Below, in pieces: positions 692 through 57,333 of a stretch of DNA of 62,063 nucleotides (within the stretch, counting starts at the first letter, position 1; each line of letters begins with the position of its first letter). The stretch comes from an uncultured Sphingomonadaceae bacterium (lineage in GTDB: Bacteria > Pseudomonadota > Alphaproteobacteria > Sphingomonadales > Sphingomonadaceae), in assembly GCA_903871605.1 (NCBI GenBank), contig CAIQHF010000032.1, forward strand, positions 1-62,063, written 5' to 3'. The translations under genes were made by a program, and so were the position numbers. The notes below the pieces were generated by a model, which was not told the DNA's origin, ran no database searches, and saw nothing but the letters and a program-made list of their open reading frames with translations.

Positions 692-2674
692 ATGGCCAAC
701 GACGACCTCTTCGCATCCCCCCGCCCCGGCAGTTCCGAAACCTACGACGCCGCCTCGATCGAGGTGCTCGAGGGGCTCGAACCGGTGCGCCGGCGCCCCG
801 GCATGTATATCGGCGGCACCGACGAGCGCGCGCTGCACCATCTCGCCGCCGAAGTGCTCGACAATGCGATGGACGAGGCGGTCGCGGGCCATGCCAATCG
901 CATCGAGGTGACGCTGGGTGCCGACAACCGCCTGACCATCACCGACAATGGCCGCGGCATGCCGGTCGACGAGCATCCGCGCTTCCCGGGCAAGTCGGCG
1001 CTCGAGGTGATCCTCACCATGCTGCATTCAGGCGGCAAGTTCAGCGACAAGGCCTATCAGACCTCGGGCGGGCTGCACGGCGTCGGCATCTCGGTGGTCA
1101 ACGCGCTGTCGGTCGACACCGTGATCGAGGTCGCGCGCAACAAGGAACTCTACCAACAGCGCTTCAGCAAGGGGCTGCCGACGAGCACGCTCGAAAAGGT
1201 CGGCGCCGCACCCAATCGCCGTGGCACCGCGGTCGCCTTCACCCCCGACCACGAGATCTTCGCCGAGCTCCGCTTCAAGCCGCAGCGGCTCTATCGGCTC
1301 GCGCGCTCGAAGGCCTATCTGTTCGCGGGCGTCGAGATACGCTGGCGCTGCGACCCGTCGGTGATCACCGACGACACGCCCGCCGAGGCGGTGTTTCAAT
1401 TCCCCGGCGGCCTCGCCGATCATCTGAGGGAGCAGATCGGCACACGCGAATGCGCCACCGCCGACTTCTTCGCGGGGCGGCAGGACTTCCCCAATGCACA
1501 AGGCTCGGTCGAGTGGGCGGTGGCGTGGCCGCTCTATTCGGACGGTTCGTACAGCTATTATTGCAACACCATCCCGACCCCCGACGGCGGCACGCACGAA
1601 CAGGGTCTGCGCGCCGCGCTGGTGAAGGGGATACGCGCGTTCGCCGACCAGGTCGGGCAGAAGCGGGCCAAGGATCTCGCCGCCGAGGACATCATGGTCG
1701 GCTCCGAGCTGATGCTCTCCGTCTTCGTGCGCGAGCCGCAGTTCCAGAGCCAGACCAAGGACCGGCTCACCTCGCCCGATGCCGCGCGGCTGGTCGAGGC
1801 GGGGGTGCGCGACCATTTCGACCATTTCCTCAGCCAGAATATGGAGCGCGGCAAGGCGCTGCTGGGCTATGTGCTCGATCGGATGGACGAGCGGCTGCGG
1901 CGCAAGGCCGAACGCGATGTCAAAAGAAAGACAGCGACATCCGGGCGCAAGCTCAGACTTCCCGGCAAGCTCACCGATTGCGCGTCGGACAGCCCGGAGG
2001 GCACCGAGATGTTCATCGTCGAAGGCGATTCGGCGGGCGGCTCGGCCAAGCAGGCGCGCGACCGCAAGACGCAGGCGGTGCTGCCGATCCGCGGCAAGAT
2101 CCTCAACGTCGCCTCGGCAACCTCCGCCAAGATATTGGCGAACCAGGAGATTGCCGATCTGATCCAGGCACTCGGCTGCGGCACGCGCGAACGCTGCGAC
2201 GCCGCCGCACTACGCTACGAGCGGATCGTGATCATGACCGACGCCGACGTCGACGGCGCGCATATCGCGACGCTGCTGATGACCTTCTTCTTCCAGGAGA
2301 TGCCCGATGTCGTGCGCCGCGGGCATCTCTATCTCGCCCAGCCGCCGCTCTATCGGCTGACCTCGGGCGCGAAGTCTCTCTATGCGCGCGACGATGCGCA
2401 GCGCGCCGAGATCGAGGCGACCCAGTTCAAGGGCAAGAAGGTCGAGGTCGCGCGCTTCAAGGGCCTCGGCGAGATGAACCCCCAGCAGCTGCGCGAGACG
2501 ACGATGGACCCGAAGACGCGTGGCATGATCCGCGTCACCCTGCCGCAGGAATATGAGGAGCGCGCGCTGGTCCGCGATCTGGTCGATCGGCTGATGGGCA
2601 AGGAGGCGCACCACCGCTACAGCTTCATCCAGGAGAATGCCGCGCGCGTGACCGAGGAGGAGATCGACGCATGA
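692..2674 (+). CDS. parE: DNA topoisomerase IV subunit B (ParE)
   Basis: This is the ATPase subunit of topoisomerase IV, which decatenates replicated chromosomes together with ParC. The 660-residue protein has the GHKL ATPase N-terminus (EVLDNAMDEAV, DNGRGMPVD, GLHGVGISVVNALS), a transducer domain and a C-terminal TOPRIM domain with Glu444 in IVEGDSAGGSAKQ and the acidic motif D517-A-D-V-D. The short N-terminus, the overall length and the stretch QAVLPIRGKILNV point to ParE rather than the longer GyrB. The ATG at 692 follows the type-B repeat and a gene-free leader. The stop overlaps the next start as ATGA, indicating coupling to the small membrane protein. Confidence 0.95.
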   Translation: MANDDLFASPRPGSSETYDAASIEVLEGLEPVRRRPGMYIGGTDERALHHLAAEVLDNAMDEAVAGHANRIEVTLGADNRLTITDNGRGMPVDEHPRFPGKSALEVILTMLHSGGKFSDKAYQTSGGLHGVGISVVNALSVDTVIEVARNKELYQQRFSKGLPTSTLEKVGAAPNRRGTAVAFTPDHEIFAELRFKPQRLYRLARSKAYLFAGVEIRWRCDPSVITDDTPAEAVFQFPGGLADHLREQIGTRECATADFFAGRQDFPNAQGSVEWAVAWPLYSDGSYSYYCNTIPTPDGGTHEQGLRAALVKGIRAFADQVGQKRAKDLAAEDIMVGSELMLSVFVREPQFQSQTKDRLTSPDAARLVEAGVRDHFDHFLSQNMERGKALLGYVLDRMDERLRRKAERDVKRKTATSGRKLRLPGKLTDCASDSPEGTEMFIVEGDSAGGSAKQARDRKTQAVLPIRGKILNVASATSAKILANQEIADLIQALGCGTRERCDAAALRYERIVIMTDADVDGAHIATLLMTFFFQEMPDVVRRGHLYLAQPPLYRLTSGAKSLYARDDAQRAEIEATQFKGKKVEVARFKGLGEMNPQQLRETTMDPKTRGMIRVTLPQEYEERALVRDLVDRLMGKEAHHRYSFIQENAARVTEEEIDA

Positions 2675-2979
2675 ACCAGATGCTGGGCTATGTGCTGAGC
2701 TTCGTCGCGGGCGCCTTGCTGTGCAACGGCATTCCGCACCTGCTGAGCGGGCTGCGCGGCGATCCCTTCCCCTCGCCCTTCGCCACGCCGTCGGGCGTCG
2801 GCAATTCGCGTCCGGTGGTCAACGTCCTGTGGGGCTTCGGCAACGGGCTCGCCGGCGCGCTGCTCGCGCTCCACTGGATGCCGCATTATGTCTCGCCGCG
2901 CGAGGATGCGCTGTTCGTCGCGGGGTTTCTGGCGATGGCGCTGTTCTGCGCGCATCACTTCGGCAAGGTGCGCGGCTAG
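2671..2979 (+). CDS. Small conserved membrane protein
   Basis: A 102-residue protein whose start overlaps the parE stop by four bases (ATGA). It has a hydrophobic N-terminal segment (about residues 3-20), a loop with PSPFATPSGVGNSRPVVNVLWG, a second hydrophobic segment around residues 48-65 and a third around 80-95, so it is probably a three-helix inner-membrane protein. I do not recognise a named family. The coupling to parE suggests co-expression but does not show a role in topoisomerase function. Confidence 0.75.
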   Translation: MNQMLGYVLSFVAGALLCNGIPHLLSGLRGDPFPSPFATPSGVGNSRPVVNVLWGFGNGLAGALLALHWMPHYVSPREDALFVAGFLAMALFCAHHFGKVRG

Positions 2980-3145
2980 GAAGGTTTGCGGCTGGGCCGG
3001 ATCGGCAACGCCGAGCACGCATACGCCGTGCGCCTGCACCACAAGGTTCGCTGCCAGCGGCGGCGGGCGAGGATCGTACGGATCAAACGGTTGCTCCCCG
3101 GCGATCGGATCGATAGCGGCGGCGGTGTCGTTTGAAGGAACCGCC

Positions 3146-4372
3146 ATGTCCGATGCCGTCTCCCCGCTCGCCGTCCCCTTCCCCGTCCTGCCGCCGATCG
3201 CGGGCGTGCGGATCGCGACGGTGCGCGCGGGCTACAAGAGCTGGGACCGCGACGATCTGACGCTGGTGACGCTCGACGCCGGCACCAGCGTCGCTGGCGT
3301 CATGACGCAATCGAAATGCCCGTCACCCGAGGTCGAATGGTGCCGGCAGGTGCTGCCGCTCGGCGCTGCGCGCGCGCTCGTCGTCAACGCCGGCAACAGC
3401 AATGCCTTCACCGGCAATCGCGGCCGCGCGGCGGTCGAGGCGATCGCGGCGCGGGTGGCGCTGGGCACGCGCGGGCTGCCCTCGGACGTGTTCGTCGCCT
3501 CGACCGGGGTGATCGGCGTGCCGCTGCCGATCCCCGTCGCCGAGGCGGGGATCGATGCGGCGCTGGATGCGCCTGCGACCGACTGGCGGGCGATGGCGGC
3601 GGCGATCTCGACCACCGACACCTTCCCCAAGGGGGCGATGGCCAAGGCGGTGATCGGCGACCGCAGCGTCACCCTCGTCGGCGTGATCAAGGGCTCGGGG
3701 ATGATCGCGCCCGACATGGCGACGATGCTCGGTTTCCTGTTCACCGACGCCGCGGTCGAGCCCGGCTTCCTCCAGCGGTCGCTCGACGCCGCGAACAGCA
3801 AGAGCTTCTCCTGCATCACGGTCGACGGCGACACCTCGACCTCGGACACCGTGCTCGCCTTCGCGACGGGCCAGGCAGGCAATGCGCCGCTCGCCTCGCT
3901 CGACGATCCCGGCGCCGACGCCTTCGCCGCCGCGCTGTCCGACGTCTGTCTCCAGCTCGCGCATCTGGTCGTCCGCGACGGCGAGGGCGCGAGCAAGTTC
4001 ATCGAGATCGAGGTGGCAGGCGCCGCGTCGGACATGAGCGCGCGGACGGTCGCGCTGTCGATCGCCAATTCGCCGCTGGTCAAGACCGCGATCGCGGGCG
4101 AGGACGCCAATTGGGGCCGCGTCGTGATGGCGGTGGGCAAGGCGGGCGAACCCGCCGAACGCGACCGGCTCGCGATCCGCTTCGGCGACACGCCGGTCGC
4201 CGAGGCGGGGCTTGCGGTCGAGGGCTATGACGAGGCGCCTGTCGCCGCGCATCTGAAGGGGCAGGATGTGCGGATCGGCGTCGATCTCGGTATCGGCGAC
4301 GGCCGCGCGACGGTGTGGACCTGCGACCTCACGCATGGCTACATCGCGATCAACGCGGACTATCGGTCCTGA
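3146..4372 (+). CDS. argJ: Bifunctional glutamate N-acetyltransferase / amino-acid acetyltransferase (ArgJ)
   Basis: ArgJ recycles the acetyl group between N-acetylornithine and glutamate in arginine biosynthesis. It is made as one chain that cleaves itself before a threonine. Here the cleavage motif KGSGMIAPDMATMLGF is intact with Thr193 as the expected nucleophile, and the C-terminal INADYRS ending is typical. The ATG at 3146 is preceded by AAGGAA and gives 408 residues, the normal size. The frame extends upstream but that part is unlike the family. The stop overlaps the next gene by one base (TGATG), so the phosphatase is probably translationally coupled. Confidence 0.94.
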   Translation: MSDAVSPLAVPFPVLPPIAGVRIATVRAGYKSWDRDDLTLVTLDAGTSVAGVMTQSKCPSPEVEWCRQVLPLGAARALVVNAGNSNAFTGNRGRAAVEAIAARVALGTRGLPSDVFVASTGVIGVPLPIPVAEAGIDAALDAPATDWRAMAAAISTTDTFPKGAMAKAVIGDRSVTLVGVIKGSGMIAPDMATMLGFLFTDAAVEPGFLQRSLDAANSKSFSCITVDGDTSTSDTVLAFATGQAGNAPLASLDDPGADAFAAALSDVCLQLAHLVVRDGEGASKFIEIEVAGAASDMSARTVALSIANSPLVKTAIAGEDANWGRVVMAVGKAGEPAERDRLAIRFGDTPVAEAGLAVEGYDEAPVAAHLKGQDVRIGVDLGIGDGRATVWTCDLTHGYIAINADYRS

Positions 4373-41204: not shown

Positions 41205-41273
41205 CGTTCCCCGGCGGACGCCGGGGTCCAGTCGACCGCGCGGGCCTGGGCCCCGGCGTTCGCCGGGGAACAG
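41205..41273. repeat. Type-D palindromic repeat (mtaB-ftsY)
   Basis: CGTTCCCCGGCGGACGCCGG then GGTCCAG at the left, GGGCCTGGGCCCCGGCGTTC then GCCGGGGAACAG at the right. Its right end runs directly into AGGAAGATC and the ftsY ATG, so the repeat edge forms part of the ftsY ribosome-binding region. Confidence 0.85.
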
Positions 41274-43995: not shown

Positions 43996-45027
43996 TTAGT
44001 TCGCCGCCGCCTTCTCGAGCAGATTGTGCCGTCGCAGCGCATGGCGCAGCTGGTCGTAGCTCAGCGCCAGCGCCGCCGCGGTCGTCCGCTGGTTGAACCG
44101 GCAGCGCTTGAGCGCCTCCTCCAGCAGCCGCTTCTCATAGGCGTCGCACGCCGCGCGCAGATCGGTGACCTCGGGCTGCTCGACCACCGCGATCGTCTGC
44201 GCGGGGCCCGGCTCGGCGGTCATCGCGGGCTTGGCGCCCTGCCCCTGCGGCCGGTAGGGCGAGGCGAAGGGATCGAACTCGATCGAATCGATCGGCCGGT
44301 CGGGCTCGTCCCAGCGATAGACCGCGCGCTCGACGACGTTGCGCAGCTCGCGTACGTTGCCCGGCCAGTCATGGCCGACCAGCGCCGCCATCGCCTTCGG
44401 CCCGAACCCCGGAAATTGCCGCCATTCGAGCTCGGCCGCCATCCGCCGCGCGAAATGATCGGCGAGCACGGGCACGTCGCCCTCGCGGTGACGCAAGGGG
44501 GGCAGCGTGATCACCTCGAACGACAGCCGGTCGAGCAGATCGGCGCGGAAGCGGCCGTCGTCGACCAACGCGGGCAGATGCTCGTTGGTCGCGGCCACGA
44601 TCCGCACGTCGACGCGGATCGCCTTGGACGATCCGATCCGCGTCACCTCGCCATATTCGACCGCGCGGAGCAACCGTTCCTGCGCGCCCGACGACAGCGT
44701 CGCGAGCTCGTCGAGAAACAAGGTGCCGCCGTCCGCCTCCTCGAAGCGCCCGACCCGCGCCTTGGTGGCACCGGTGAAGGCGCCCGCCTCGTGGCCGAAC
44801 AGCTCGGCCTCGATCAGCGTCTCGGGCATCGCCGCGCAGTTGAGCGTGACCAGCGACCCCGCCCAGCGCGGCGACAGATGGTGGAGGCGCTCGGCGATCA
44901 GCTCCTTGCCCGTGCCGCGCTCGCCGATCACCAGCACCGGACGGTTGAGCGCCGCGGCGCGGCTGGCGCGCTCGACCGCGTCGAGGAAGGCCGACGATTC
45001 GCCGATGAATTTCTGGTCGCGATCCAT
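43996..45027 (-). CDS. pspF: Phage-shock operon sigma-54 activator PspF
   Basis: A 343-residue bacterial enhancer-binding protein with no receiver domain, as in PspF. The AAA+ domain starts near the N-terminus: Walker A GERGTGKE at 35-42, the sigma-54-contacting GAFTGA at 82-87, Walker B GGTLFLDELA, and RFRADLLDRLSFEVITLPPLR. A linker and a Fis-type HTH (RFNQRTTAAALALSYDQLRHALRRH) end the protein. It is divergent from the psp operon and is expected to be held inactive by PspA until membrane stress. Confidence 0.94.
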   Translation of the reverse strand: MDRDQKFIGESSAFLDAVERASRAAALNRPVLVIGERGTGKELIAERLHHLSPRWAGSLVTLNCAAMPETLIEAELFGHEAGAFTGATKARVGRFEEADGGTLFLDELATLSSGAQERLLRAVEYGEVTRIGSSKAIRVDVRIVAATNEHLPALVDDGRFRADLLDRLSFEVITLPPLRHREGDVPVLADHFARRMAAELEWRQFPGFGPKAMAALVGHDWPGNVRELRNVVERAVYRWDEPDRPIDSIEFDPFASPYRPQGQGAKPAMTAEPGPAQTIAVVEQPEVTDLRAACDAYEKRLLEEALKRCRFNQRTTAAALALSYDQLRHALRRHNLLEKAAAN

Positions 45028-45048
45028 GGGCGGGAAATGGGACTATTC

Positions 45049-45061
45049 GCCAACATTTGGC
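45049..45061. promoter_or_regulatory. Candidate PspF upstream activating site
   Basis: GCCAA-CAT-TTGGC, a perfect inverted repeat in the intergenic region between pspF and the psp operon. It lies about 70 bases upstream of the -24 element, a usual enhancer distance. Binding by PspF is inferred from position. Confidence 0.5.
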
Positions 45062-45126
45062 AAGCGCGGCGATTGCCATGCGCCGGACTTCGCCACGAAA
45101 CCCGCAGAACAGGGCGCTTTCGAAAA

Positions 45127-45143
45127 TTGGCACGACATCTGCA
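45127..45143 (+). promoter_or_regulatory. Sigma-54 (-24/-12) promoter of the psp operon
   Basis: TTGGCACGACATCTGCA matches the sigma-54 consensus: GG at 45129-45130 and GC at 45141-45142, exactly ten bases apart, with the full TTGGCACG -24 block. It faces the psp genes, about 55 bases upstream of the small ORF at 45199, and is paired with a divergent PspF gene. Confidence 0.88.
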
Positions 45144-45198
45144 AAGCTCTTTCCGTCACCGCTCCGGCGGTCCACAAGTTCAGGTACGGAGACACGTC

Positions 45199-45306
45199 AT
45201 GTCCTATGCTTTTGCCACCCCGCGCAGCCCGGTCGTGACCGTGCTCGCCACGCTGTTCGCGACGGCCGCCTGCCTGGCCGCCGCGGTCGGTCCGGCGCTC
45301 GCCTGA
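45199..45306 (+). CDS. 35-residue hydrophobic peptide, first gene of the psp operon (putative)
   Basis: ATG at 45199 with GGAGA eight bases upstream and TGA at 45304. The peptide starts MSYAFATPRSPVV and continues with a hydrophobic Ala/Leu-rich segment (TVLATLFATAACLAAAVG) ending in ALA, so it resembles a signal peptide or a single membrane helix. It lies between the sigma-54 promoter and pspA and would be on the same transcript. No known family; it could be a stress microprotein or a leader. Confidence 0.55.
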   Translation: MSYAFATPRSPVVTVLATLFATAACLAAAVGPALA

Positions 45307-45371
45307 TCGACCAGGCCGGGCGGCGCCCCCCTTCCCGCCCGGCCATCCCCCCTTCCCCAGGAGTACCGAAA

Positions 45372-46052
45372 ATGGGCATTTTCTCCCGCACCCGCGACAT
45401 CATCGCCGCCAACGTCACCGACCTGCTCGACAAGGCGGAGGACCCCGCGAAGATGATCCGCATGATCGTCATGGAGATGGAGGAGACGTTGATCGAAGTC
45501 CGTGCCTCCGCCGCGCGCACGATCGCCGACCAGAAGGAGATGCGCCGCCACATCGCCAAGCTCGACAAGCTCCAGGAGAACTGGACCGAGAAGGCCGAGC
45601 TGGCGCTTTCCAAGAACCGCGACGATCTCGCCAAGGCGGCGCTGCTCGAGAAGCAGAAGGCCGGCGACATGGCCGACCGCCTGCGCGAGGAGATCGGCGT
45701 GCTCGACGACGCGCTGAGCGCGTCCGAGGCGGACATCACCAAGCTGCAGAACAAGCTGCGCGAGGCGCGCGCGCGCCAGAGCTCGATCGTCGCCCGGCTG
45801 GAGAGCGCGCACAACCGCTACAAGCTGCGCGAGATGACCAACGGCCCCAAGATCGACGAGGCGTTCGCGCGCTTCGAAACGCTCGAGCGCCGCGTCGACT
45901 TCGCCGAAGGCCGTGCGGATGCCGCCGGCATGGGCGGTCCGGCCAAGACGCTCGACGAGGAGATCGCCGAGCTGCGCAGCTCCGAGAAGGTCGATGCCGA
46001 GCTCGAGGCGCTGAAGGCGCGGATGGGCCGCTCCGCAGGCCAGGAGGGCTGA
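45372..46052 (+). CDS. pspA: Phage shock protein A
   Basis: A 226-residue ESCRT-III-like protein that coats damaged inner membrane and inhibits PspF. The N-terminal amphipathic helix is MGIFSRTRDIIAANVTDLLD; DPAKMIRMIVMEMEETL is the family signature, followed by long coiled-coil helices (about 30-185). The ATG at 45372 follows CCAGGAG. The frame is open far upstream, but the family begins with MGIFSR. Second gene after the sigma-54 promoter. Confidence 0.96.
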   Translation: MGIFSRTRDIIAANVTDLLDKAEDPAKMIRMIVMEMEETLIEVRASAARTIADQKEMRRHIAKLDKLQENWTEKAELALSKNRDDLAKAALLEKQKAGDMADRLREEIGVLDDALSASEADITKLQNKLREARARQSSIVARLESAHNRYKLREMTNGPKIDEAFARFETLERRVDFAEGRADAAGMGGPAKTLDEEIAELRSSEKVDAELEALKARMGRSAGQEG

Positions 46053-46057
46053 TCGTC

Positions 46058-46345
46058 ATGGACGCGCTCATCCCGATGGTGGTGTGCGGCATGCTCTTCA
46101 TCGGGTTGCCGTGGATCATCTTCCACTATGTCACCCAGTGGAAGCGCGCCCGCGGCCTCTCGATCGAGGACGAGAACCTCCTCGACGGGCTGCACGATCT
46201 CGCCCGCCGCCTCGACGACCGGCTCGCCACCATTGAGCGCATCGTCGCCGCCGACGATCCCAATTGGCGCCCGTCCGTCCCCGATCGCTCCGAGCGCACG
46301 CGCGAGACAAGCCGCGACGCCGACGATTGGCAGGGCCGCGCCTGA
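46058..46345 (+). CDS. pspB: Phage shock protein B
   Basis: A 95-residue bitopic membrane protein. One helix (about residues 5-24, PMVVCGMLFIGLPWIIFHYV) is followed by a cytoplasmic amphipathic coiled coil with LARRLDDRLATIERIVAADDPNWR, the PspB signature. In enterobacteria PspB and PspC signal membrane stress to PspA. It starts five bases after pspA. It is longer than the usual 75 residues, with a charged Arg/Asp-rich tail. Confidence 0.93.
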   Translation: MDALIPMVVCGMLFIGLPWIIFHYVTQWKRARGLSIEDENLLDGLHDLARRLDDRLATIERIVAADDPNWRPSVPDRSERTRETSRDADDWQGRA

Positions 46346-46374
46346 CACGACAAGATAGCTAGGGAGTAACCTCG

Positions 46375-46758
46375 ATGCCTGCTCGCTACACCAAATTCTA
46401 TCTCGACAAGCGCAACCGCAAATGGCTCGGCGTCTGTTCGGGGATCGCGGATTATACCGGCCTCGACATCACGCTGGTGCGCGTCGCCGCCGTCCTGCTC
46501 ACCGTGATCGGCGGCTTCCCCTGGACGCTGTTCGCCTACTGGATCACCGCCTGGCTCGCCACCGACAAGCCGCTCGAGCTCGAGGATATGAGCCGCGAGG
46601 ACCAGCGCTTCTGGCAGAAGGCGCGCGTGACCCCCGGCCACAGCGTCCGTGACGTCCGCTCGAGCTTCCGCGACATCGATCGTCGCTTGAGCGATCTCGA
46701 AGTCTATTACACCAGCCACAATCGCCGGCTCGCCGACGAGATCGACAGCCTGCGCTGA
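46375..46758 (+). CDS. pspC: Phage shock protein C (PspC domain)
   Basis: A 127-residue protein with the PspC domain: KFYLDKRNRKWLGVCSGIADYTGLD then a membrane helix (VRVAAVLLTVIGGFPWTLFAYWITAWL). The C-terminal half is a soluble helix ending RLSDLEVYYTSHNRRLADEIDSLR. That ending resembles the tails of the three following small proteins (EI..LR). It has its own ribosome site (AGGGAG). Confidence 0.94.
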   Translation: MPARYTKFYLDKRNRKWLGVCSGIADYTGLDITLVRVAAVLLTVIGGFPWTLFAYWITAWLATDKPLELEDMSREDQRFWQKARVTPGHSVRDVRSSFRDIDRRLSDLEVYYTSHNRRLADEIDSLR

Positions 46759-46785
46759 AGACGCGGCTCGATAAGGGGAAACAGC

Positions 46786-47100
46786 ATGTCAGGGTTCGCC
46801 GAAGCCATCGTTCCGCTCGTCGCCTTTCCGACGATTTTCATCGCCCCAGCCTGGGTGATCGTGACGCGGATGAAGATCAAGAACGGCTATCCGCTCGGCA
46901 CGCGCTGGGGCGAGCCGATCTACCCGCACTCGTCCGACGTCGCCGAGGAGCGGGTGCGGCTGGTGACGCAGGAGAATGCGCAGCTTCGCGCCGAACTCGG
47001 CGCGGTCAAGGATCGGCTCGCGACGATCGAGCGGATCGTCACCGATGGCGCCTTCCGGCTCGACCGCGAGATCGAGACGCTGCGCGGCCAGGTGAACTGA
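46786..47100 (+). CDS. PspB-like small membrane protein 1
   Basis: A 104-residue protein: an N-terminal membrane helix (about 6-28, IVPLVAFPTIFIAPAWVIV), a short loop (NGYPLGTRWGEPIYP) and a coiled coil (VRLVTQENAQLRAELGAVKD) leading to RLATIERIVTDGAFRLDREI and ETLR. RLATIERIV is identical to the PspB core. It has GGGGAAA before its ATG. Likely a PspB paralogue acting in the same membrane-stress module; the exact role is unknown. Confidence 0.82.
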   Translation: MSGFAEAIVPLVAFPTIFIAPAWVIVTRMKIKNGYPLGTRWGEPIYPHSSDVAEERVRLVTQENAQLRAELGAVKDRLATIERIVTDGAFRLDREIETLRGQVN

Positions 47101-47114
47101 GAGGAGTATCGGAC

Positions 47115-47378
47115 ATGGATATCGGCATACTCGTTCCCATCATCGGCGTCTCGATCCCGATCGTCGCGCTCGCCCGCAGCCCGTTCATGGCATGGGTCGC
47201 CGCCAAGGAGCGGATCGCGCAGGCCTCGACCGACGCCACCGCCGAGAAAGCCGCGCAATATGCCGCCAAGACCGAGCGGCTCGAACAGCGCGTCGCGGTG
47301 CTCGAACGCATCCTCACCGATCGCTCGAGCAATCTCGCCGACGAGATCGACCGGCTTCGCGACACCCCGCTCAACTGA
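47115..47378 (+). CDS. PspB-like small membrane protein 2
   Basis: An 87-residue protein: a short N-terminal membrane helix (ILVPIIGVSIPIVALA), an Ala-rich helix (AKERIAQASTDATAEKAAQY), then LEQRVAVLERILTDRSSNLA and DEIDRLR, matching the tail of the preceding protein (ERI-x-TD...L-x-x-EI-x-x-LR). It starts 14 bases after its neighbour with GAGGAG upstream. Member of a tandem series. Confidence 0.8.
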   Translation: MDIGILVPIIGVSIPIVALARSPFMAWVAAKERIAQASTDATAEKAAQYAAKTERLEQRVAVLERILTDRSSNLADEIDRLRDTPLN

Positions 47379-47408
47379 GCACCCCCTCTTGCTTGAAGGA
47401 ATCTTGCG

Positions 47409-47672
47409 ATGAACCACGGAGAATGGATGGTCGTCGTGATCGTCGGGATGGTGCTGGCGGCGCGGATCTACCGCGACCGCTGCGGGATCGGCGGCAAGGG
47501 CCGCAACCCGTTCGACGCGATGACGCCCCGCCCCGCCGACGACGCCGAAGCGCGCCGGCTGCGCGACGAGGTCCGCGCGCTCAAGGAGCGGATCGCGGTG
47601 CTCGAGCGGATCGCCACCGATCATTCCACCTCGCTCGACCGCGAGATCGAATCGCTGCGCGACCGGCCCTGA
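47409..47672 (+). CDS. PspB-like small membrane protein 3
   Basis: An 87-residue protein: N-terminal membrane helix (WMVVVIVGMVLAARIY), a charged loop with CGIGGKGRNPFD, then a coiled coil RRLRDEVRALKERIAVLERI followed by ATDHSTSLDREIESLRD. The tail is again the shared motif. AAGGAA precedes the ATG at 47409. Same strand and spacing as the other psp genes. Confidence 0.8.
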   Translation: MNHGEWMVVVIVGMVLAARIYRDRCGIGGKGRNPFDAMTPRPADDAEARRLRDEVRALKERIAVLERIATDHSTSLDREIESLRDRP

Positions 47673-47709
47673 GCCGGCTGCGCCTGCCATCAGCCGAAGG
47701 ACAGCCCCG

Positions 47710-47943
47710 ATGACCGACATCCTTCCCCTGCTCACCGTTTCGATCGCCGCGCTCGGCGGGCTGGCGATGCTGACCGCCGCCGCGCTCGCCGGCTGGCGCG
47801 GCTGGCTCGATCTCCAGCGCAGCGGGCTGGCGCACGCGCACGACATGCCGCCGCCGACCACCGCCGGCGCGCGCATCGAACTTGCCGACCTGCGCGAGCG
47901 CATCCGCAAACTCGAGGCGATCGCGGCGGGGATCGATCTGTAG
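47710..47943 (+). CDS. PspB-like small membrane protein 4
   Basis: A 77-residue protein: membrane helix (about 5-29, LLTVSIAALGGLAMLTAAAL), a Pro-rich spacer and a shorter coiled coil ADLRERIRKLEAIAAGIDL. It keeps the ER(I)xxLExI register of its neighbours but lacks the EIxxLR end. Probably the last gene of the operon, followed by a type-D repeat. Confidence 0.7.
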   Translation: MTDILPLLTVSIAALGGLAMLTAAALAGWRGWLDLQRSGLAHAHDMPPPTTAGARIELADLRERIRKLEAIAAGIDL

Positions 47944-47966
47944 GCGGACCGGCGGTCGATACAGAC

Positions 47967-48087
47967 CGTTCCCCGGCGAAAGCCGGGGACCAGGCCCGCA
48001 GCACGTAGCGGGCGCGACGTGTGTACCGGGACGTGGGGCCTGGGCCCCGGCCTTTGCCGGGGAACAAGAATTCGCCGGGGAACAAGA
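47967..48087. repeat. Type-D palindromic repeat after the psp operon
   Basis: CGTTCCCCGGCGAAAGCCGG with GGACCAGG at the left, GGGGCCTGGGCCCCGGCC with TTTGCCGGGGAACAAG at the right. The end CGCCGGGGAACAAGAA is present twice in tandem. It separates the psp operon from sufE and may stop or stabilise the psp transcript. Confidence 0.85.
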
Positions 48088-48135
48088 AGGTGCAACGGTC
48101 TTCCTTGCAACGGCTCCCCCTGCTAATCGCCCCCC

Positions 48136-48549
48136 ATGTCCACCACGCTCGACGCCGTCCGCGACGAATATGAGTTTCTCGACGCCGACGATCGCTACCG
48201 CCTGCTGATCGACCTCGGCCGCGCGCTCGAGCCGATGCCCGAGGCGCTCAAGACCGATGCGACACTGGTGCGCGGCTGCTCGGCATCGGTGTGGGTCTAT
48301 CCGACGCAGCCCGTGGATGGCCGCCTCCACTTCGTCGCCGATTCGAACGCGGCGATCACCAAGGGGATCATCGCGCTGGTGCTGAAGACGGTGCAGGACC
48401 GCCCCGCCGCCGAGATCGCCGCCGCCGACATCGAGGGCGCGCTCGCCCCGTTCGACCTCAAGAACCAGCTGAGCTCGAACCGCACGCAGGGCATCCCCAA
48501 CATGATCGCGCTGATCCGCGACACCGCGGCGCGCTACGCAGGCGTGTGA
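48136..48549 (+). CDS. sufE: Cysteine desulfuration protein SufE
   Basis: Accepts sulfur from SufS for iron-sulfur cluster assembly. The 137-residue protein has the acceptor Cys48 in LVRGCSASVWVYP, upstream YRLLIDLGRALEPMP and the C-terminal LSSNRTQGIPNMIALIRDTA, all characteristic. No suf operon is adjacent. The stop overlaps the next gene by one base (TGATG), implying coupling. Confidence 0.94.
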   Translation: MSTTLDAVRDEYEFLDADDRYRLLIDLGRALEPMPEALKTDATLVRGCSASVWVYPTQPVDGRLHFVADSNAAITKGIIALVLKTVQDRPAAEIAAADIEGALAPFDLKNQLSSNRTQGIPNMIALIRDTAARYAGV

Positions 48550-57234: not shown

Positions 57235-57333
57235 CGTTCCCCGGCGAAAGCCGGGGCCCGGGCCTCAGGGCGCTGTACGGACGTTGCGCCCGCCAAATGC
57301 TCCGGGCCTGGGCCCCGGCCTTCGCCAGGTAAC
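57235..57333. repeat. Type-D palindromic repeat (chpT-cheA)
   Basis: CGTTCCCCGGCGAAAGCCGG with GGCCCGGG on the left, GGGCCTGGGCCCCGGCC with TTCGCCAGGTAACG on the right. It lies between chpT and cheA, where it may separate the two transcripts. Confidence 0.82.

Follow-up and report, generated by a model that had tools for sequence, protein, structure and literature searches.

We analysed a 62,063-nucleotide stretch of DNA (the window) from an uncultured Sphingomonadaceae bacterium, one contig of a 4.28-Mb genome. It carries a phage-shock protein (psp) gene cluster in which pspA, pspB and pspC are followed by four further small genes, here called X1 to X4 (Table 1). PspF, PspA, PspB and PspC all score above their NCBIfam equivalog cut-offs and, together with a sigma54 promoter pattern, make up the psp system of the window. 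The genes from pspA through X4 are co-directional, with intergenic gaps of 5-37 nt. A codon-usage gene caller, trained on a set made up partly of psp, X1, X2 and X4 homologues and without X3, returned exactly pspA, pspB, pspC and X1-X4. Coordinates and gene caller thus bear out the original prediction, a sequence-only reading of this DNA, which had listed four small same-strand genes after pspC. A scan of positions 44900-48300 returned no sigma70 promoter and four terminator-like sites (1.7 expected), one of them on the forward strand within X1.

Table 1 Features of the psp locus, in coordinates of the window.
Feature	Position	Strand	Basis
pspF, sigma54 enhancer-binding activator, divergent	43996..45027	-	NCBIfam TIGR02974, 482.3 bits (cut-off 443.55)
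Sigma54-type promoter TTGGCACGACATCTGCA	45127..45143	+	Pattern match
Leader ORF (open reading frame) of 35 aa with a single hydrophobic segment; lies between the promoter and pspA	45199..45306	+	Sequence
pspA	45372..46052	+	TIGR02977, 276.7 bits (cut-off 242.95)
pspB	46058..46345	+	TIGR02976, 75.2 bits (cut-off 51.7)
pspC; its C-terminal helix is the reference tail	46375..46758	+	TIGR02978, 108.2 bits (cut-off 104)
X1, 104 aa; membrane helix, GYPL...WG juxtamembrane motif, PspC-type tail	46786..47100	+	Profiles, alignment, AlphaFold2 model
X2, 87 aa; IPI-type hydrophobic N-terminus, PspC/PspB-type tail	47115..47378	+	TIGR02976, 23.3 bits, below cut-off 51.7; tail profiles
X3, 87 aa; hydrophobic N-terminus, PspC-type tail	47409..47672	+	Tail profile, alignment
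X4, 77 aa; hydrophobic N-terminus, short conserved tail RIE.ADL(K/R)ERIRKLEAIAAG	47710..47943	+	Alignment; 66/70 family loci; hhalign
Pair of large palindromic repeats between X4 and sufE; may mark the end of the operon	47968..48066	+	Exact repeat arms 47971-47988 and 48045-48062; fold -93 kcal/mol, z -6.4

X1-X4 are conserved as proteins. The ratio of non-synonymous to synonymous substitution (dN/dS) between the window and locus L072 was 0.11 for X1, 0.23 for X2, 0.35 for X3 and 0.31 for X4, and 0.11, 0.25 and 0.12 for PspA, PspB and PspC, respectively. Over five genome pairs, of which L066-L070 leaves out X1, the highest value for any X gene was 0.56 (X1, window versus L064). The AlphaFold2 (AF2) model of X1, computed from 48 input rows, consists of a helix (residues 2-33), a loop holding the conserved GYPL...WG motif, and another helix (residues 51-103), with a mean predicted local distance difference test (pLDDT) score of 81.5 and blocks of 90-97 within residues 61-100. 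The PspC model has C-terminal helices at 87-115 and 117-126, at lower confidence than the X1 model. Heptad hydrophobicity exceeded that of shuffled sequences in all four X families (median z of 3.5, 2.3, 2.1 and 2.1 for X1 to X4; background 0.1), which together with the X1 model supports the earlier description of membrane-anchored helical proteins.

None of X1-X4 reaches any Pfam or NCBIfam cut-off. Against the PspB family PF06667 (cut-off 25.6 bits) X2 scores 18.2 and X1 11.3 bits, and X3 and X4 have no listed PspB match; TIGR02976 gives 23.3 bits for X2 (E 6e-5) and 14.0 for X1. The PspC membrane domain PF04024 matches none of the four, and the PspC model TIGR02978 gives 20.6 bits for X1, 16.0 for X3 and 15.8 for X2, the matched part being C-terminal. 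The X1 profile matches no solved structure at E<=0.1.

The resemblance to known Psp proteins lies in the tails. RLATIERIV is found in PspB and X1, ERI(V/L/A)TD...L..EI..LR in X1-X3, and LADEIDSLR ends PspC. A profile built from the 48 C-terminal residues of PspC, scored on the same loci on which it was trained, matched 307 of 486 X1-X3 proteins at E<0.01 (X1 153/209, X2 75/124, X3 79/153), compared with 11 of 176 PspB, 1 of 178 PspA, none of 1129 other genes and none of 486 shuffled tails. For the window's own proteins the E-values were 1.5e-6 (X1), 2.3e-5 (X3), 7.6e-5 (X2), 0.048 (PspB) and 2.2 (X4), and in bits X1 (24.3) stands beside E. coli PspC (23.5). A PspB-tail profile, built on 57 of 176 PspB sequences owing to a regular-expression limit, matched X2 in 70 of 124 cases, X1 in 15 of 209 and X3 in 0 of 153. 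The shuffled sequences retain the true N-terminus and so are no control when X profiles are the query; the X1, X2, X3 and X4 profiles matched 206, 119, 148 and 6 of the 486. Profile-profile comparison by hhalign, trained on the same loci, joined X1, X2 and X3 as one family at 99%, and PspB or PspC to X1-X3 at 92-96%; PspB to PspC gave 70% and PspA to X1-X3 2-9%. X4 was joined to X2 (94.3%) and X3 (92.4%), less to X1 (58%), and to PspB or PspC at about 4% (PspB-X4 3.9%). The comparison with the PspB and PspC families therefore supports homology of the X1-X3 tails to those of PspB and PspC, though below family cut-offs, while X4 is linked to X2 and X3 only, with no direct link to either PspB or PspC. 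The recurring tails of the original prediction are present beyond chance (0/1129, 0/486); X4 lacks the second half of the tail. We also considered the X4 tail as PspB-type, as its profile gives E. coli PspB 11.6 bits, but rejected this on the tail profiles (0/145 X4 with the PspB-tail profile) and the hhalign value.

Like PspB, X1-X4 are small psp-operon membrane proteins, predicted to be single-pass, with a cytoplasmic helix and an R-(L/I/V)-x-x-(L/I)-E core. However, they fall below the PspB cut-offs, and where PspB ends in ...PNWR, X1-X3 have T-D and a second L..EI..LR segment, and X4 ends after the core. The tails of X1-X3 align without gaps to that of E. coli PspC, which ends RLREMERYVTSDTFTLRSRFRQL, the X1 counterpart being RLATIERIVTDGAFRLDREIETLR. 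Unlike PspC, the X proteins have no match to its membrane domain, a single hydrophobic segment and T-D in place of T-S in the tail. This alignment pairs V105 of E. coli PspC with V85 of X1, and in X1-X3 proteins where the motif was found the position holds V, A, I, L or T. The C-terminus of PspC is reported to bind PspA under stress, and in E. coli the V105D change is reported to have abolished PspC-dependent signal transduction (PMC6003685).

We surveyed 70 Sphingomonadaceae loci (69 fetched plus the window), a non-random set drawn, mostly one per genus, from genomes with a listed PspB match. At least one X1-X3 gene was present in 68 of the 70, 67 by called genes and L027 by a search repeated on ORFs, as the caller missed genes in low-GC loci such as this one; X4 was present in 66. 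Before the L027 correction, the number of X1-X3 copies per locus was zero in 3, one in 8, two in 5, three in 27, four in 14, five in 8 and six in 5. Within the 600 nt that precede pspA, a looser sigma54 pattern is present in 53 of the 70 loci versus 27 of 1400 shuffled upstream sequences. Thus pspA-pspB-pspC, one or more X1-X3 genes and X4 form the typical Sphingomonadaceae psp locus, and the earlier expectation of a conserved neighbourhood held. Among the best 80 of 466 loci encoding an X4 relative, chosen by X4, the commonest orders were A-B-C-X1-X2-X3-X4 (15 of 80), A-B-C-X1-X1-X3-X4 (15) and A-B-C-X1-X1-X2-X3-X4 (12). The named loci come from Sphingomonas, Sphingobium, Stakelama, Hephaestia, Parasphingopyxis, Rhizorhabdus and unnamed Sphingomonadales or Sphingomonadaceae, with one titled only Proteobacteria bacterium. 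The one annotated relative locus that we read, from S. parapaucimobilis, has four co-directional "hypothetical protein" genes between pspC and the SufE gene, of which only the first was matched, to X1. In 21 of the 80 loci (L133 and 20 more) an unclassified ORF of 37-43 aa lies within the X cluster, in most cases between X2 and X3; its plan is a hydrophobic segment followed by (E/T)..DR(P/V).RR, and it is possibly a further tiny psp-operon protein.

In a tree of X1-X3 proteins, the nearest neighbour lay in another genome for 223 of 225, which indicates that the X paralogues are old and have been kept, with losses; the X set is old in Sphingomonadaceae. Among 31 loci outside the family (17 from the order, 14 from the class), three have an ORF whose best match is an X profile, and all three belong to one other family of the order (f8). 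Two further loci, L083 with a second PspB and L091 with two solo tail proteins, stand outside this count since these proteins match PspB or PspC best. The f8 loci (L081, L087, L089) encode a second short PspC-like protein of 78-84 aa with membrane domain and no tail, then one X-type gene, possibly an intermediate arrangement. Two genomes of another family (f48) have, after pspC, a canonical PspC tail and then a canonical PspB tail as solo proteins with similar IPIVA(L/I) stalks (L091 2663-3152, L194 2426-2914), the PspB-tail protein being above the Pfam PspB cut-off.

Relatives also occur beyond the family. With the X1 profile, 10 of 241 genomes of the class were matched: four family genomes strongly, and six from outside it at E 1.4e-6 to 7.6e-4 in the coiled-coil part only, one of these matches (G403) adjoining the PspB gene. 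With the X2 profile, 66 of 397 genomes of the phylum were matched at E<=0.001, 21 within the family and 45 outside it. Thirty-two of these 45, spread over seven families, have a best match below 1e-7; the other 13, whose best E exceeds 1e-7 and whose match is in some cases PspB itself, were set aside here and in the PspA comparison below. We fetched 20 loci from the class and phylum searches. Nineteen, from 18 genomes, encode stalk-tail proteins of 73-99 aa with no psp gene in the approximately 5 kb read, and in the twentieth, L231, the stalk-tail gene lies inside a psp operon. The stalk-tail gene itself was read in 18 of the 32 genomes; in L221, L225 and L226 a longer ORF overlaps it. At E<0.01 the PspC-tail profile detects 17 of the 20 orphan stalk-tail proteins, and none of the eight orphans scanned exceeds a Pfam or NCBIfam cut-off. 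In an unrooted tree with X1-X3 (85 columns, too short to root), the orphans are nearest X2 (15) or X3 (5). The full L231 arrangement (G581, f19; 1554-3380) is pspA, pspB, a short tail-less PspC, the stalk-tail protein and then a full PspC. A mobile origin was rejected: a tblastn search with X1 against 50,697 phage records gave no match, and against 72,556 plasmid records a single one, on an 880-kb Sphingomonas replicon that carries a psp cluster.

The relatives go with PspA. All 32 strong-match genomes encode PspA (E<1e-30), compared with 8 of 20 match-free genomes (two at E<1e-30); as the first 13 candidates were scored in most genomes, a match-free genome may hide a match. Inside the class of the window, PspA was found in 8 of 8 strong-match and 8 of 20 match-free genomes (Fisher p 0.008). 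For each of the 32 genomes, the best stalk-tail match and the listed PspA hits are on different contigs or at least 25 kb apart. Within Sphingomonadaceae, 14 of 298 genomes have no PspB match; 11 of these lack both a PspA hit and an X1-type match and the remaining three have both, in line with the co-occurrence with pspA expected earlier. In one of the three, G069, the PspA hit is divergent and on another contig, and the psp contig, cut at its start, holds PspC and X genes. G045 and G273 lack PspB and retain genes resembling X2 and X3, an assignment made by eye. In the psp locus of G045 (L190 2306-3907), which has no PspB, PspC ends before the tail and X2- and X3-like genes are present.

Taken together, the X set is a real, conserved feature. 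It is best read as additional Psp membrane components that carry PspC-type tails, of long standing in Sphingomonadaceae and belonging to a broader, unnamed family whose members accompany PspA. The four extra genes suggest that the stress system has further docking proteins at the membrane. More specifically, X1-X3, and less surely X4, would be additional single-pass inner-membrane Psp components whose tails dock PspA, an account that we give an even chance on the anatomy, tail homology, conservation, linkage and co-occurrence with PspA found here. X1-X4 would be made from the pspA sigma54 promoter, probably on a single transcript. Basic residues after the hydrophobic segment point to a membrane stalk with the N-terminus outside and the C-terminus in the cytoplasm, where the helix of X1-X3 would end in the PspC-type tail. 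The X tails may dock PspA by themselves or as part of mixed bundles that include the tails of PspB and PspC. A stressed membrane would then offer several PspA docking proteins with different stalks, and perhaps different inputs, and docking would pull PspA off PspF and keep it membrane-bound. If so, paralogues that keep the PspC-type tail and vary the stalk would separate sensing from docking, each open to deletion and swap experiments, and the set bears on how membrane stress reaches PspA. The unlinked relatives would be a class of Psp partner so far overlooked in bacteria credited with PspA, PspB and PspC only. A wider proposal, tentative and on balance doubtful, is that the single-pass "stalk plus Psp tail" proteins make up an unnamed, widespread family that serves throughout Pseudomonadota as general receptors for PspA, working with it even if encoded elsewhere, and that Sphingomonadaceae gathered and diversified them into a psp-operon multi-receptor array in which each stalk may read a different membrane state.

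Several observations weigh against the docking account. A full PspC profile searched against the window's genome ranks X2, X3 and X1 next after the PspC-domain proteins, but only at E 0.016, 0.094 and 0.23; the same search gave two X genes in G004 (E 0.003 and 0.094) and, at E<=1, none in G021 or G094, though both carry X genes. G094, G047 and G046 each gave one unrelated match, outside psp and PspC-domain genes, at E 0.18-0.32. X4 matches neither tail profile (0/145 with each). Alanine occupies the V105 position in 93 of 205 X1 and 91 of 147 X3 proteins, and thus not every X tail need bind PspA. The 20 match-free genomes all belong to the window's class, and 24 of the 32 strong-match genomes do not. 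Tail similarity within a genome, a possible sign of co-evolution, exceeded that between genomes in three of six family pairs and not in the other three; from the same excess we do not claim gene conversion of the tails.

It is also possible, although we think it unlikely, that the X proteins act as a brake: their tails would pair with those of PspB and PspC and keep the PspC tail off PspA in unstressed cells, copy number tuning the threshold. The tail homology and heptad pattern, the PspB-tail matches of X2 and the shared gene cluster would fit this, but co-regulation with pspBC would not be obvious for the unlinked relatives. Equally improbable to us is a purely effector role, in which X1-X4 stabilise the membrane directly or counter particular insults with no part in signalling, like the reported protection against secretins by PspBC. 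Yersinia PspB and PspC are described as having effector roles (PMC3467454), and the stalk and juxtamembrane parts of the X proteins are family-specific, whereas the part common to X1, X2, X3 and PspC is the tail, not the stalk. The original prediction had proposed PspB duplication. This suits X2, with its sub-threshold TIGR02976 match and PspB-like tail, but a recent tandem duplication of pspB alone is very hard to credit given the nearest neighbours in the tree, the tails of X1 and X3, which match the PspC-tail profile more often (153 versus 15 of 209; 79 versus 0 of 153), and the relatives far from pspA. These points, together with the missing PspB or PspC link of X4, the age of the orthogroups and the unlinked single genes, rule it out as the whole origin; "PspB duplicates" is also too narrow a name, as X1 and X3 resemble the PspC tail more closely and members of the family occur outside the operon. 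Convergence of amphipathic helices is scarcely credible: the tails are short helical segments and the whole-genome PspC searches gave weak E-values, but the tail profile took in almost no PspA coiled coils, other genes or shuffled tails, and the X1 profile, searched against the 4.28-Mb genome of the window in six frames with each of the 36 candidates scored, found X1, X3 and X2 and nothing else at E<=0.001.

Extra PspB-like copies in psp operons, mentioned in one line with accession AOL22920.1, and PspC-PspB fusions are reported in the available text of Ravi et al. 2024 (PMC11237479). The X genes are likewise additional PspB-like copies in psp operons; however, that text describes no family-wide set, PspC-type tails, X4 or unlinked relatives, and its main text has no word beginning "Sphingo". 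A survey that speaks of PspA and PspC paralogues (PMC9239133) has, in its accessible part, no word beginning "Sphingo" or "alphaproteobacteria". E. coli PspD is also a small extra psp-operon product, but the X profiles score it at most 0.9 bits. We found no description of the X set in the literature on psp genes in Sphingomonas or Sphingomonadales and on Psp paralogues, with subscription journals mostly outside coverage. Zymomonas mobilis is a species that we place in this group. Its pspA, pspB and pspC (ZMO1063-1065) rise under ethanol (PMC3495753), ZMO1063-1065 and ZMO1062 rise in xylose media (PMC8645129), and a temperature table has ZMO1062 and ZMO1063 next to heat-shock genes (PMC8237431); the passages on psp genes in these three papers name no X genes.

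Short hydrophobic ORFs of 35-70 aa were seen by eye at the position of the leader ORF in many family loci. ZMO1062 ("pspD") may be a counterpart, S. parapaucimobilis has an annotated 147-nt ORF at this position, and L022, L027 and L045 encode a longer protein there, TonB-C-like in appearance. Palindromes of the form CCCCGGC-NNNN-GCCGGGG occur in the window as five exact copies and one near copy, versus 0.18 expected (47968-48066, 41209-41268 and 57239-57256).

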